Of a DNA stretch of 64,000 nucleotides, positions 41,861-48,626 are shown one piece after another. A model generated the notes under the pieces. It ran no database searches, was not told the origin of the DNA, and worked only from the letters and a program-made list of their open reading frames with translations. Position numbers and translations under genes: made by a program. The DNA lies in assembly GCA_022826685.1 (NCBI GenBank), contig JAJDUL010000035.1, positions 124,001 through 188,000 of the forward strand, written 5' to 3'. The stretch is from Gemmatimonadota bacterium. GTDB taxonomy: Bacteria; Gemmatimonadota; Gemmatimonadetes; Palauibacterales; Palauibacteraceae. Each line of letters opens with the position of its first letter. Position 1 is the first letter of the stretch.

Positions 41861-42529
41861 ATGTTCAGGAAACTCAGGCAGATGGTCGACGAGGCGCTCG
41901 ACCGGATGGAAGCGAAGCAGCCCGGTGCGTCCGAGGACGACATCGACCGCGTCATCCGCGCCATGCGCCAGGAACTCGTCGACACGCGGGCACGGATCTC
42001 CGAACTCGAGGGGCTGTTCGAGTCGCAGGTGCGTCAGGCGGACAAGGAAAAGGACGCGGCCCGGGTCGCGGAGCGGCGGGCGGCGAAGGCCGCGGAGATC
42101 GGGGATGCGGAGACGGTCGAGGTCGCGAACCGGTTTGCGGCGCGGCACCGCCAGCGGCTCGAGGTCCTCGTCCTCAAGGCCGAGGGGACGCAGGCCGAAC
42201 TCCAGCAGCAGAAGGCCGAGGCGGCGCAGGGCGCGGAACAACTGAAGAGCGCGATGGCGCGGCGGGATTCGCTCGGCGTGCAGCAGCGGCGCGCGCAGGC
42301 GATCCGGCATTCCTCTGAACGGTTCGACTCGGCGGACGCATTCGACCGCATGGCCGATAAGCTCGAGGGAGGCCAGGATCTCGACGACGCGCGCCGCCAG
42401 GTGGACGAGGCGCTCGACCCGATGGCCGGCGCGCCGCAGCGGGACTTCGTGGCCGAGCGGGAACTGCGGGAGGCGCGGGCCGACGCGATGCTCGAGGAGC
42501 TGAAGCGCCGGATGTCGAAGGGGGAGTAG
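41861..42529 (+). CDS. PspA/IM30-like coiled-coil protein
   Basis: 222 residues, almost wholly helical, with charged heptads (ARVAERRAAKAAEIGD). The N-terminal amphipathic start (MFRKLRQMVDEAL), absence of any signal or hydrophobic segment, and length agree with the PspA/Vipp1 family, which binds inner membranes and responds to envelope stress. The motif match is weak, so a general coiled-coil scaffold is possible. It starts 24 bases before the solute symporter on the same strand. Confidence 0.6.
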   Translation: MFRKLRQMVDEALDRMEAKQPGASEDDIDRVIRAMRQELVDTRARISELEGLFESQVRQADKEKDAARVAERRAAKAAEIGDAETVEVANRFAARHRQRLEVLVLKAEGTQAELQQQKAEAAQGAEQLKSAMARRDSLGVQQRRAQAIRHSSERFDSADAFDRMADKLEGGQDLDDARRQVDEALDPMAGAPQRDFVAERELREARADAMLEELKRRMSKGE

Positions 42530-44095: not shown

Positions 44096-45145
44096 TCAGC
44101 TCAGGAGGCGGCGGAATTCGGCGAACTTCGGAGGCGGGCCCAGGACGACCAGGAGGTCGCCGGGCCGCACTCTCTCCTCCGGTGCCGGGTTGTAGACGAA
44201 GCCGTCGCCGCCCTCCCGGCCGCTTTCTCCGCGCTGGATCGCGACGACGAGCAGTCCGGTTCTGGCCGGGATCTTCGCCTCGGCCAGAGTGAGTCCGGCG
44301 ACCTCCGAGGATTCCGACACGGACGCCTGCTCCAGGAGCAGCCCCATGCTGTCTCCGGCGGCCTGCGTATCGACGAAGAGCGTGACGTCGGGGCGCAGGA
44401 CGAGCGAGGCCAGCTGGATGCCGCCCGCCGCGGCGGGCGTGACGACGCGGTCGGCGCCCGCCTTCCTGAGCTTGCTCACGGACTCCTCGGCGCGCGCCCG
44501 TCCCACGATCGTGAGATCCGGATTCAGTTCCCGCGCGGCGAGGCAGACGAAGGCGTTGTCCGTATCCGCGCTCAGCGCGGCGATGAGCCCCCGCGCCCGG
44601 TCGATCCCCGCCGCCCTGAGCGAGTCGTCGTCCGTCGCGTCCCCCACGATGACCAGCGCGTCGGGGTCCAGTTGCCGCGCGTCATCGAGGTGCGCGGGGT
44701 CGCTCTCGATGGCGACGTAGGGAGTGCCGCGGGCGACGAACCTCTTGATTGCGGCAAGGCCGGTGCGGCCCACGCCGCACAGGATCACGTGGTCGTCGAC
44801 GTCGTTGATCCTCTTCATCATCCTGCGTCTCTTGAGGGTCTGGGTCAGGTCCAGCTCGACGAGGGTGGCGGTGATGAGGGCGAACCAGATCGCGAGCGTG
44901 ACGATGCCGCCCGCGATCATGAAACTCGCGAATACGCGGCCGCCCTCCGTCAGCGTCTGGATTTCCCCGTACCCGACCGCCGAGACCGTGATCACGGTCA
45001 TGAAGAACGCGTCCGAGAGGCTGTATTCGGGCATGAGGGCGAAGCCGGTCGTCCCGATGATCGTGAGACTCACCGTGAAGAAAACGGCCCCGAGGAGGCG
45101 GCCTTCGAACCGGCTGAAGTCGAACAGGTGCCGCAAGAGGTTCAT
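44096..45145 (-). CDS. Two-helix potassium channel with RCK (TrkA-N/TrkA-C) domain
   Basis: 349 residues. Two membrane helices flank a pore loop with the filter VSAVGYGEIQT near residue 57 (canonical TVGYGD; here A for T and E for D). A cytoplasmic NAD-binding TrkA-N domain follows (HVILCGVGRTGLAAIKRF) with the acidic ribose-binding residues in YVAIESDPAH, then a TrkA-C domain (VRPGDLLVVLG). This is the MthK-type layout, gated by nucleotide or ions. A GTG at 45154, overlapping the stop of the gene upstream, is an alternative start. Confidence 0.88.
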   Translation of the reverse strand: MNLLRHLFDFSRFEGRLLGAVFFTVSLTIIGTTGFALMPEYSLSDAFFMTVITVSAVGYGEIQTLTEGGRVFASFMIAGGIVTLAIWFALITATLVELDLTQTLKRRRMMKRINDVDDHVILCGVGRTGLAAIKRFVARGTPYVAIESDPAHLDDARQLDPDALVIVGDATDDDSLRAAGIDRARGLIAALSADTDNAFVCLAARELNPDLTIVGRARAEESVSKLRKAGADRVVTPAAAGGIQLASLVLRPDVTLFVDTQAAGDSMGLLLEQASVSESSEVAGLTLAEAKIPARTGLLVVAIQRGESGREGGDGFVYNPAPEERVRPGDLLVVLGPPPKFAEFRRLLS

Positions 45146-45150
45146 CGATC

Positions 45151-46830
45151 TCACCGCGTGCCGCGGTCCAGGCGCGCGACGACCTGACGGCCCTTGATCC
45201 GGCTGCCGTCGAGGCCGCGGACCACCGCGTCGGCCACCAGCGAATCGATGTCGACGAGGGTGAAGTTCTGCCGGATGTCGATGCGCCCGATCTGTCCGCC
45301 GGCGGCGGAGGTTTCGCCCGTGATGGCGCCCACGAGGTCGCCGGGGCCGGCGCCGTCGCGCTTCCCGACGCCGACGAAGACCTTCGTCCACGTGGGTCGC
45401 GTGGCGCGCCGGGCGCTGGCGTCGGTGGGCGCGCCCGCGGCGTCCCGGGTCGGTGCGTCGCCGCGAGCCGGCCGCCCGGGCGCCGCTTCGCCGGCCGGGC
45501 GGGCGGGGCGGTCCGCTGGCCGGCTGGGTGCGGCCAGCGCGGCGGCCACCCGCGGAGCGCCGTGTTCCTCCAGCAGCGGAGCCAGGAGGAGCGCACCGCT
45601 CGCGAGATCCTGCTCTTCCAGCGCGGCGGAGACGCGGGCGCGGAAGGCGGCCACGTCATCCAGGAGCGCGGGGTCCGCGGGCTCGGCCAGCGGTGCGACC
45701 CGCAGCCCGGCCCGCGACGCCGTCAGCTCCAGTTGCCGCTCATGCAGGGTGCCGACGATGGCGTAGCAGCGCTCGGCGGCCGCCGCCGCGCGGGCGAGGG
45801 GCTCCGGCGAGGGCGGCAGTTCGAATGCAACGGCATCGGCGGCGGCCTCGACTTCGCCCCACGCCCCGACCCGCACCGTCGCGCCATCGTCCGTTTCGGC
45901 TGCGCCGGCTCCCTCGGCCGCGGCGTCACCCGTTTCGGCCGCGCCGTCGTCCGTCTCGGTCGCGACGACGCGCAGCCCGGTCACTGAGAGCGCCGCGCGC
46001 ACATCGGCGACGGCTTGGGGGGCCGTCTCGACGCTGACGGCGGTCGCCGCGCCTGCCTCCGTGATGTCGTGAAGCAACTCGGCCAGGCGGGCGAGCCGGC
46101 CCTCGCGCGTCGCCCGGCTCGCGACGGCGACCGCAGTGCCCGCCACGCGGCCCGAGTCCGACTCCCCGGCCCGCGGTTCGGCGAACAGTTCGTTCGGCCA
46201 CCGGCGCGCGCGCGGGAGCCAGCGCTCGATCAGCTCGTCGAACGCCGCATCGCGGGCGTGGGTCGTCGCGATCCGACGGGCCCCGTCGCCGGAGGCCTGC
46301 ACCACGGCCTCGACGGCAGCCCGCGCCGGCTCCAGCGCACGCACGTCGTCGAGGACCAGGGTGCACAGCGCCGCCGCCGGCATGTCTCCCCTTCGCACCC
46401 CCTCCAGCAGAACGGCCGGAGGCCCGACGAGGATCGGCGCCCGCCCCGTCGCCCCGGCGCCGGCGCCCGGCACCACGACGACCTCATGCCCGGCGGCGCG
46501 GGCAACGGCGTGCATGCGCGACGCGCAGCGCCGCGCGCGGTCCACCGTTGCGGTGAGCACGAAGGCGCGTCCGCCCGTCTCGCCAGCGGCCAGATCCCGC
46601 ACGGCGGCCGCCGCGTAGAGCGGGGCGAGGCCCGCCCCCTCGGCGGCAACGAGCGCGATGTGGCGTCCCCGCTCGATCGCGCCCGAGAGGGTCTCGAGCG
46701 CTTCCGAAGGCGGCGGCGCCGTTTCCGCCTCGCCTGCCGGCTGGTCCTGGTTCAAGAGCGGGATCCCCGGGAACGAATGGCCAAAGGTCGTGAACGGGCG
46801 GTCGCCCGCATGGGTGGGGAAGGTACGCAA
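45151..46830 (-). CDS. DEAD-box helicase-like protein with lost ATPase motifs and an intact DbpA RNA-binding domain
   Basis: 559 residues. The last 80 residues (WTKVFVGVGKRDGAGPGDLVGAI... VVARLD) are a clear DbpA-type RNA-binding domain, the C-terminal part of DEAD-box proteins that binds structured rRNA. The rest keeps the helicase length and spacing, but its catalytic motifs look eroded. In place of AxxGxGKT there is VAAEGAGLAP (near residue 63); in place of DEAD there is LVLDDVRALE (near residue 158); SAT is replaced by ATTH (near 188); HRIGRTGRAG is not recognisable. It also has long Ala-, Asp- and Glu-rich stretches. I infer an ATPase-dead RNA-binding protein, perhaps in ribosome biogenesis. 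Both the TTG at 46830 and a TTG at 46755 are possible starts. Confidence 0.7.
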   Translation of the reverse strand: MRTFPTHAGDRPFTTFGHSFPGIPLLNQDQPAGEAETAPPPSEALETLSGAIERGRHIALVAAEGAGLAPLYAAAAVRDLAAGETGGRAFVLTATVDRARRCASRMHAVARAAGHEVVVVPGAGAGATGRAPILVGPPAVLLEGVRRGDMPAAALCTLVLDDVRALEPARAAVEAVVQASGDGARRIATTHARDAAFDELIERWLPRARRWPNELFAEPRAGESDSGRVAGTAVAVASRATREGRLARLAELLHDITEAGAATAVSVETAPQAVADVRAALSVTGLRVVATETDDGAAETGDAAAEGAGAAETDDGATVRVGAWGEVEAAADAVAFELPPSPEPLARAAAAAERCYAIVGTLHERQLELTASRAGLRVAPLAEPADPALLDDVAAFRARVSAALEEQDLASGALLLAPLLEEHGAPRVAAALAAPSRPADRPARPAGEAAPGRPARGDAPTRDAAGAPTDASARRATRPTWTKVFVGVGKRDGAGPGDLVGAITGETSAAGGQIGRIDIRQNFTLVDIDSLVADAVVRGLDGSRIKGRQVVARLDRGTR

Positions 46831-46899: not shown

Positions 46900-48321
46900 A
46901 TGTCTAAGGTCACAGTCCGCTCGCCGCGGCCGTCCGGCGCGCTCTCCCGTGACGACCCCCAGCACGAGGTGACAGCAATTTCCGCAGTCGGAACCCTGGA
47001 GGCGATTCAGGCCGGGGTGTGGGGCGTCCCCCTCATCATCCTTCTCCTCACCACGGGCCTCGTCTACACGCTGCTGCTGCGGGGCCTCCAGTTCCGGCGC
47101 CTGCCGCAGGCGCTCTGGCTGGCGCTCGTCAAGCGCCGCGAGCCGGAGGGCGAGGGCGACATCTCGCACTTCCAGGCGCTCATGACCGCGTTGGCCGCAA
47201 CGGTCGGCACCGGGAACATCGTGGGCGTCGCGACGGCCATCGGCGCGGGGGGTCCGGGGGCGCTCTTCTGGATGTGGGTGACGGGACTCCTCGGGATGGC
47301 CACGAAGTACGCGGAGGCGGTCCTCGGCGTCCGGTTCCGGGAGACCGACGCCCGTGGCGAGAAGGCGGGCGGCCCCATGTACTACCTCGAGCACGGCCTC
47401 GGTCGGGGCCCGGTCGGCCGGGGCCTCGCGATCGCCTTCGCGCTCTTCGCGACGCTCGCCGCGTTCGGCATCGGCAACGGCGTCCAGTCCCAGGCGGTGG
47501 CGGACGCGATGAACGAGTCGTTCCGCGTCCCGCACTGGATCATGGGACTCGTCACGGCGGGCGCCGTCGGCCTCGTCATCATCGGAGGGATCCGCTCCAT
47601 CGGGCGCGTCGCGAGCGTCATCGTGTCGGCGATGATCGTCCTCTACATGGGCGTCGCCGGCGTCGTCCTCATTTCCAACGCGGCGGAGATCCCGGCGGCC
47701 TTCCAACTCGTGTTCGAGCACGCGTTCGGGGGGCGCGCCGCAGCCGGCGGTGTGCTCGGTTACACCGTCCTCCAGGCGATGCGCTTCGGCGTCGCGCGCG
47801 GGATCTTCTCGAACGAATCGGGACTGGGCACGGGCGCGATCGCCGCGGCGGCGGCGCAGACGCGCGAGCCGGTGCGGCAGGCCCTGGTCTCGATGACGCA
47901 GACGTTCATCGACACCATCGTCGTCTGCACCCTCACCGGACTCGCGATCCTGACCACGGGCGCGTGGCAGTCGGGGGCCGAGGGCGCGAACATGACGCAA
48001 CTCGCCTTCGACACGGGTCTCCTCGCGGGCGCGGGGGACATCGTCGTCGCGCTCGGCCTCGCAACCTTCGCCTTCAGCACGATGCTCGGGTGGTCCTACT
48101 ACGGGGAACGGAGCTTCGCCTACCTCTTCGGCGAACGCGTGATCCGCCCCTATCGGCTGGCCTTCGTGCTCGTCGTCGGGCTCGCCGCGGTGGTGGAACT
48201 CGATGTCGTGTGGCTGATCTCCGACATCCTCAACGGCCTCATGGCGGCGCCGAACCTCGTGGGACTCCTGCTTCTGTCAGGCGTCGTATGGCGGGAGACG
48301 CGGAGCTACTTCAACCGCTAG
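46900..48321 (+). CDS. Alanine or glycine:cation symporter (AGCS family)
   Basis: 473 residues with about 11 membrane helices. Sequence landmarks of the AGCS family are strong: [68 protein letters not shown], and [32 protein letters not shown]. These carriers take up alanine or glycine with Na+. Divergent from the helicase-like gene with about 70 bases between. The N-terminus is long before the first helix; an internal GTG (residue 24 region, [12 protein letters not shown]-like) is another possible start. Confidence 0.93.
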
Positions 48322-48350: not shown

Positions 48351-48626
48351 CTAGCCCCGGAAGGGGGCGTAGTGGCCGAGGTCGTAGGCCCGGATCGAGA
48401 GGACGCCCCTCGCGCCGATGCCCACGTCCGCCAGGGTGCGCGTCTCGTCGCGGATGCGGCGCTCGGCGAACTCGGTGTAGAAGTCGGCGGGGTCGTCGGA
48501 GGAGCGCTGGAGCATCTCGCGGATGCCGAAGGCCTTGGCGTCGGCCACGGTGGTGTCGGCGGACAGCTCCGCCACGTGTTCGAGCCAGCGGTCCGGCATG
48601 ATGAGGCGTACCGTGATGGCGCTCAT
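48351..48626 (-). CDS. Small conserved protein, possible ubiquitin-like fold
   Basis: 91 residues, soluble. The start MSAITVRLIMPDRWLEHVAELSADTTVADAKAFG has the strand-strand-helix order and Thr-Val-x-Asp element of ubiquitin-like folds (for example EsaB/YukD). The last third (LADVGIGARGVLSIRAYDLGHY) completes the pattern. No partner enzyme (E1, protease, T7SS ATPase) is nearby. GAGGATC precedes the ATG. It lies 44 bases downstream of another small gene on the same strand and probably shares its message. Family placement is tentative. Confidence 0.55.
   Translation of the reverse strand: MSAITVRLIMPDRWLEHVAELSADTTVADAKAFGIREMLQRSSDDPADFYTEFAERRIRDETRTLADVGIGARGVLSIRAYDLGHYAPFRG

Follow-up and report, generated by a model that had tools for sequence, protein, structure and literature searches.

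A predicted DEAD-box pseudohelicase with a retained DbpA-type RNA-binding domain, widespread in one class of Gemmatimonadota

The window analysed here is a stretch of 64,000 nucleotides from a Gemmatimonadota genome close to Ca. Palauibacter (3.28 Mb in 73 contigs, 90.85% complete). On its reverse strand, between positions 45151 and 46830, lies an open frame of 559 codons (referred to as the pseudo-DbpA gene) whose listed start is TTG. An earlier reading of this DNA, made without database searches (the sequence-only reading), assigned its C-terminus to a DbpA-type RNA-binding domain (RBD). Pfam agrees, with PF03880 matching residues 484-553 of the window protein (E = 8.7e-21; score 74.2 bits, cut-off 25.6), and this protein is the sole PF03880 match in the 90.85% complete assembly. 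As residues 1-40 evolve at dN/dS 0.69, the true start may sit further inside the frame, for example at the TTG at 46755. The gene, its parts and its immediate neighbours are as follows.

44096..45145, minus strand: K+ channel (Ion_trans_2, TrkA_N, TrkA_C), the next gene downstream on the same strand, its ATG 5 bases past the pseudo-DbpA stop codon
45151..46830, minus strand: pseudo-DbpA ORF, 559 aa, TTG start as listed; the TTG at 46755 may be likelier
46192..46710, minus strand: RecA1-like domain, residues 41-213, catalytic motifs lost; the family's N-terminal part against the canonical paralogues gives hhalign E 4.5e-17; dN/dS 0.22; borders set by us
46624..46647, minus strand: motif I remnant, AAEGAGLA in place of AxxGxGKT
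46339..46356, minus strand: motif II remnant, VLDDVR in place of VLDEAD
46255..46266, minus strand: motif III remnant, TTHA in place of FSAT
46195..46224, minus strand: basic element R203-P212 (RWLPRARRWP); among 80 degenerate rows arginine stands at R203 in 80% and at R207 in 85%, and the R207 position is D in 55% of canonical rows
45667..46191, minus strand: RecA2-like domain, residues 214-388, motif V unrecognisable and second half of motif VI missing; hhalign E 1.8e-4; dN/dS 0.49
45529..45654, minus strand: possible DeaD-type dimerisation segment, residues 393-434, PF25399 with E 0.0081 and 16.6 bits, below the cut-off of 23; residues 389-437 dN/dS 0.28
45172..45381, minus strand: DbpA RNA-binding domain, residues 484-553, PF03880; dN/dS 0.12 over residues 482-556
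46900..48321, plus strand: Na+:alanine symporter, the divergent upstream neighbour

In f1, the window's own family, the K+ channel is found by tblastn in 23 of the 27 loci longer than 4 kb (with the window locus L010 and the repeats L040-L047 left uncounted), and it is also present in two f6 loci (L064, L066). The symporter likewise adjoins the gene in many f1 loci, in one f2 locus (L049) and in one f3 locus (L055). These shared neighbours support orthology within groups of families, and none of them is a fixed partner. A functional tie to the K+ channel as the main function was considered and rejected because the pair is not fixed, a thymidine kinase coming after the pseudo-DbpA gene instead in L061 (f5) and L063 (f7). 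Judged by Pfam match, the 25 neighbours scanned include no ribosome-assembly gene, and seven of them have no match at all. Two proteins of the window without a Pfam match recur in its relatives. One of 91 aa (48351-48626, minus strand) is 91-100% identical in seven close-relative loci (L040-L046) and recurs a few kb or less from the pseudo-DbpA gene in f2 (38-47% identity; L048, L050, L052, L053, L054) and in L025 and L067; the other, of 222 aa (41861-42529, plus strand), looks coiled-coil by eye and is 91-98% identical in L040-L047.

Beyond the RBD and the dimerisation segment below its cut-off, a single-sequence Pfam search finds nothing in the window protein, and no DEAD domain is recognised. 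A phmmer search against the PDB finds the RBD of DbpA and matches the core to DEAD-box proteins weakly (E about 0.35), and the NCBIfam model NF008744 gives 54.3 bits, far under its cut-off of 524. The core is too diverged for these single-sequence methods to detect it above cut-off, and it is detected by profiles. The AlphaFold2 model, built from 522 residues of this protein plus eight relatives, was not usable (mean pLDDT 37.8, pTM 0.23), and a scan for promoters and terminators returned nothing exceeding chance.

The sequence-only reading had taken the part upstream of the RBD for a DEAD-box core, and profile comparison bears this out. With the RBD removed, 21 f1 members, none of which has GxGK[TS] (L036 has GSGKG), align by hhalign to 53 canonical paralogues over 372 colinear columns with E = 3.9e-22 and a probability of 99.5, against E = 0.4 for a reversed-profile control. 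Taken piece by piece, the RecA1 part aligns with E = 4.5e-17, the RecA2 part with 1.8e-4 (probability 48) and the dimerisation part with 0.0016 (probability 16), all three in the corresponding positions. When 14 f1 members, again stripped of the RBD, were made into a profile and searched against the PDB, the best match was MJ0669 (E = 4.3e-20), followed by DeaD and, third, DbpA; among the best 60 matches, 59 are DEAD-box proteins by name and the remaining one is the U5 snRNP 200 kDa helicase. An unrelated N-terminal fold, the outcome that the sequence-only reading had named as contrary to it, was thus not what the profile found. A larger profile of 49 members covers positions 2-395 of the 404 of CshA (E = 4.9e-61). 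When these 49 N-terminal parts were scanned singly against Pfam at E 0.01, PF00270 was matched in 34 and PF25399 in 18, and Helicase_C was absent from the six Pfam families listed; the window's own N-terminal part matched the dimerisation segment alone. By profile, rather than by 3D model, two DEAD-box-type RecA-like domains are therefore predicted to be present.

A scan whose reach is limited to close relatives returned 8 loci of 77-87% identity, three of them from Candidatus Palauibacter and the other five from further MAGs of Gemmatimonadales or Gemmatimonadetes. PF03880 itself was found in 219 of the 249 phylum genomes searched. We took 120 further loci, giving 149 RBD-bearing ORFs, of which 143 (window included) were aligned. 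The loci were picked by hand from the best-scoring places, so that family f5 is under-sampled and the shares given below are not estimates for the class. Six ORFs, partial or oddly framed, were omitted from the motif table: in L022, L051, L118, L119 and L154 the patterns for motifs I, II, III and VI match nothing, and L109 is a partial canonical copy.

In the window protein the motifs are replaced as the sequence-only reading had described, by AAEGAGLA at motif I, VLDDVR at motif II and TTHA at motif III, with RAAA and then a gap at the site of motif VI. The 143 aligned rows divide into 53 canonical rows, in which the motifs are nearly invariant, 89 degenerate rows, and one odd row (L099). The degenerate rows come from 89 genomes in eight families (f1 30, f6 24, f7 16, f2 6, f5 5, f8 4, f3 3, f10 1), and their frames are 404 to 806 aa long. 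All 89 lack the last four positions of motif VI, 17 of them keeping a first-half stub, RRHG or RRHS, and motif V is unrecognisable, the degenerate rows sharing at most four of its ten letters. Motif I retains GxGK[TS] in 8 of the 88 degenerate rows with letters there (5 from f2, 3 from f8); motif II is a literal DEAD in one of 89, with the first Asp kept in 61; and a literal SAT (motif III) occurs in three. The two kinds of row also differ in spacing: from where the motif IV helix ends to the NYDVP strand it is 50 in the 53 canonical rows and ranges from 22 to 57 (median 36) in 83 degenerate rows, and the stretch that holds motif VI is 27 in canonical versus 19-24 in degenerate rows. Orthologues with intact motifs, the other outcome that the sequence-only reading had set against itself, are absent (0 of 89 degenerate rows); the canonical copies belong to a separate paralogous lineage, which accompanies the dead one in 18 genomes.

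Two rows deserve separate mention. L029 (genome G026) is the sole degenerate row with a literal DEAD (CVDEAD), and its motif I reads AGAGSGHE, the P-loop lysine being gone. In L099 (G122:C2:1945500-1948100) the RBD is in frame and the upstream part resembles a canonical copy read in the wrong frame, for which reason it was excluded from the degenerate counts; a frameshift in a canonical gene, or an error in sequencing, may account for it.

Trees separate the two kinds of copy by one split. In a FastTree of 134 rows, which left out 15 rows (near-copies and partials) and included L099 under the label degenerate, a single branch with support 98 divides degenerate from canonical rows, L099 falling beside the canonical ones. 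The same split was recovered with support 100 by IQ-TREE from 72 hand-chosen rows, and a tree of the RBD only, a domain that contains none of the motifs, needs a single change (support 90, from few columns). All trees are unrooted, and at the midpoint root of the 134-row tree the degenerate rows do not form one clade. From the shared losses we infer that the degenerate lineage derives once from an active ancestor; the order of the losses is likewise inferred. Mapped onto the 72-row tree, retention of GxGK[TS] takes 4 changes, that of GxG 3 and that of the Q motif 2. The P-loop was therefore probably lost more than once, and the break in motif VI is common to all degenerate rows.

Of the 129 genomes sampled, 107 had every known match taken. 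Among these 107, the degenerate copy alone is present in 71, one of each kind in 18, and the canonical copy alone in 17 (all f7); the remaining genome has a degenerate copy and a canonical copy that is probably frame-shifted. In this tally the match numbers were copied by hand, and 17 genomes were assumed to have 1 match. The window's genome has eight PF00270 matches. L002 is the separate canonical DEAD-box protein that the sequence-only reading proposed to look for (GTGKT, DEAD, SAT, HRVGRTAR); it is RhlE-like, its best NCBIfam score being to RhlE and below that model's cut-off, and Pfam finds neither an RBD nor a dimerisation segment in it. Of the other matches, L004, L006, L008 and L009 score as RecG, Mfd, SecA and UvrB, and L003, L005 and L007 resemble RecQ, RecQ and PriA by eye. 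A second DEAD-box RNA helicase besides L002 was not seen in the window's genome, the assembly being short of about a tenth.

Selection was estimated by the NG86 method from 8 close relatives including the window (28 pairs, all of one close group). The dN/dS values by part are 0.69 (residues 1-40), 0.22 (RecA1-like), 0.49 (RecA2-like), 0.28 (dimerisation segment), 0.38 (linker) and 0.12 (RBD). The values for the RBD and the RecA1-like part in these close relatives show that the gene is not decaying, in agreement with the sequence-only reading, which had judged so from the open frame and the conserved C-terminus. Together with the occurrence of the dead form in 89 genomes and eight families on one side of one branch, they point to a pseudohelicase retained by selection. 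We also compared conservation in 80 degenerate rows (nine near-copies of the window omitted) with that in the 53 canonical rows, which were left unthinned, so the canonical figures may be raised. From canonical to degenerate rows, bits per column go from 2.71 to 2.46 in the RBD, from 3.05 to 1.54 in RecA1, from 2.61 to 1.06 in RecA2, and from 2.41 to 1.71 in the dimerisation segment. Several arginines are particular to the degenerate rows: R54 (91%; canonical A 57%), R186 (85%; canonical T 81%) and R207 (85%; canonical D 55%), and an R-x3-R-x2-RWP element is invariant across 14 f1 members. These conserved arginines could form a surface for RNA or protein contact that is independent of ATP.

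The RBD offers the closest clue to a target. The RBD of YxiN is described as recognising a guanine by main-chain contacts of I436, G437 and I439, with G423, T424 and K427 also contacting RNA, and in Hera the guanine contact alone is given as alike (V461, G462, V464), its RBD reading another RNA (PMC3695512). In the window protein the guanine-contact motif is I514-G515-R516-I517, and the position of G515 is G in every degenerate row with a letter there. Counted by spacing from I-G-x-I, a sequence count made without a structure, the RNA-contact places of the window protein are I514, G515, I517, G501, A502 and G505; E. coli DbpA has G, A and G at the spacing of the last three. At these places, judged by such spacing, the RBD of the window protein is as DbpA-like as that of E. 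coli DbpA. Some RBD changes are special to the degenerate rows, D492 (99%; canonical A 47%) and R548 (96%; canonical K 64%). The well-characterised helicases with this domain (DbpA, CsdA, YxiN) are stated to act in 50S maturation, and CsdA has this kind of RBD, yet is said not to bind hairpin 92 (PMC8190605). Recruitment of DbpA to hairpin 92 runs through its RBD, according to PMC7973409, which also cites a dominant-negative DbpA mutant that blocks 50S assembly in E. coli. Given what is said of CsdA, and that the RBD of Hera reads another RNA, the RNA target of the window protein may differ from hairpin 92.

Taken together, homology, phylogeny and selection uphold the central claim of the sequence-only reading, that a DEAD-box helicase lost its ATPase motifs and kept the RBD, the ATPase loss itself being read from sequence. 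The protein is almost certainly a DEAD-box pseudohelicase, predicted from its motifs to lack ATPase activity. The dead version occurs in many species of the class and is apparently kept by selection, which makes a function of its own probable. For its origin, we propose an early duplication, within the class, of an active DEAD-box helicase that had a dimerisation segment and a DbpA RBD. The degenerate copy is now without motif V, the DEAD glutamate, SAT and the second half of motif VI; most lineages also lack the P-loop lysine and some the Q motif, while the fold (by profile) and above all the RBD were retained. For its mechanism, the protein would dock through its RBD on the 23S rRNA of late 50S precursors, at hairpin 92, where the dead and perhaps dimeric core, with its newly conserved RecA1-like arginines, could act as an ATP-free placeholder or chaperone for the peptidyl-transferase region until later assembly steps displace it. 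Counting against a dimer, PF25399 is below cut-off in the window protein and 31 of 49 members have no match to it at E 0.01. If the analogy with the dominant-negative E. coli mutant holds, a dead DbpA would also need other means of release or of being tolerated. The mutation concerned is reportedly located in motif VI. The rRNA-binding chaperone that had been suggested from the sequence is possible; we hold the role itself, docking on hairpin 92 and acting in 50S assembly without ATP, tentatively, at slightly less than even odds, and give the explanation as a whole (pseudohelicase, origin and mechanism) a probability of about 0.5.

The same RBD could instead grip structured RNA more generally, making the protein an RNA chaperone or mRNA-binding regulator that acts on mRNA stability or translation rather than on ribosome assembly. 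That CsdA and Hera, as described, are unspecific for hairpin 92 fits this, as do the degenerate RBDs' own changes at D492 and R548; however, binding to 23S rRNA is what this domain is best described as doing, and its guanine-contact motif is intact, so we consider it unlikely, if deserving of some weight. The other role suggested from the sequence was that of a regulatory competitor, a dead protein that occupies the RNA site of an active helicase or forms mixed dimers with it and so tunes it. The 18 genomes with all copies taken that have one canonical and one degenerate copy would suit such a role, as would the dominant-negative effect on E. coli 50S assembly cited in PMC7973409. Since 71 of the 107 genomes have the degenerate copy without a canonical DbpA-type one, competition with that paralogue cannot be the general role, and L002, the one DEAD-box RNA helicase of the window's genome, has neither RBD nor dimerisation segment by Pfam; the suggestion is thereby weakened and, as an explanation of the family, quite unlikely.

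That RhlE-like helicase without an RBD, the single canonical one in the genome, raises the thought of an adaptor, a cofactor lending specificity by bringing an active RhlE-type enzyme to rRNA, much as eukaryotic rRNA helicases are described as gaining specificity from cofactors (PMC9539457). The interaction is purely hypothetical, though, and RhlE-like helicases were counted in the window's genome alone, which leaves the adaptor a long shot. Much further down the scale, a divergent yet active enzyme with unusual ATP binding or hydrolysis is extremely improbable: the 8 degenerate rows that keep GxGK[TS] (5 f2, 3 f8) may still bind nucleotide, but the second half of motif VI is missing in 89 of 89 rows and the DEAD glutamate in 88 of 89, and the window protein is without the P-loop lysine. 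Least credible of all, with next to no chance, is a decaying pseudogene. The RecA2-like part is relaxed (dN/dS 0.49) and one relative, G045, has a TGA within the match; against this stand dN/dS values of 0.12 to 0.28 in the RBD, the RecA1-like part and the dimerisation part, which refute decay for the 8 close relatives, and the presence in 89 genomes, from eight families, of degenerate frames that span 404 to 806 aa.

What these results describe, as far as motifs, trees and substitution rates tell, is a widespread and selected pseudohelicase lineage in one bacterial class. Some genomes have both the dead paralogue and its active sister, and most of those sampled have the dead one alone. Its lineages represent successive stages of loss in nature (P-loop kept, P-loop lost, Q motif lost), so that one can ask what use a helicase core has without ATP, and how cells tolerate and keep a dead DbpA that would be expected to jam ribosome assembly. 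It is doubtful, but worth stating, that in much of the class the ATP-driven DbpA/CsdA step of 50S assembly is replaced or permanently supplemented by an ATP-free dead DEAD-box protein on the peptidyl-transferase hairpin; if that were true, the normal job of a bacterial pseudohelicase would be what is dominant negative when engineered in E. coli. At title and abstract level, the open-licence literature yielded no description of a bacterial DEAD-box pseudohelicase, which is weak evidence of absence. ATP-driven RNA remodelling defines DEAD-box proteins, and the nearest precedents found are one eukaryotic DEAD-box pseudohelicase and one bacterial DNA pseudohelicase.

Compared with helicases of the DbpA/YxiN/CsdA type (PF00270, PF00271, PF03880; NF008744), the window family is alike in domain order, in fold by profile, in its guanine-contact RBD and in a weak DeaD-type dimerisation segment. 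It differs in the loss of motifs I, II, III, V and VI, in having no Helicase_C match among the Pfam matches of 49 members at E 0.01, and in its score to NF008744 (54.3 bits versus 524). Utp25/Def, a pseudohelicase of the SSU processome, is likewise described as DEAD-box-like, with motifs lost and fold kept, and as still needed, in ribosome assembly (PMC9539457); it is, however, eukaryotic and works on the small subunit, and the Utp25 model is absent from the Pfam matches of our 49 members at E 0.01. The PriA of Deinococcus radiodurans, in the account of PMC4504706, is a bacterial pseudohelicase free of ATPase activity that keeps nucleic-acid binding and whose motifs are poorly conserved in its phylum. 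Unlike the window protein, it serves DNA replication restart and is not a DEAD-box RNA protein, and its inactivity was measured, whereas ours is predicted from the motifs. With a helicase fold recognised by profile and its catalytic motifs lost, the window protein fits the same descriptive class of pseudohelicases.
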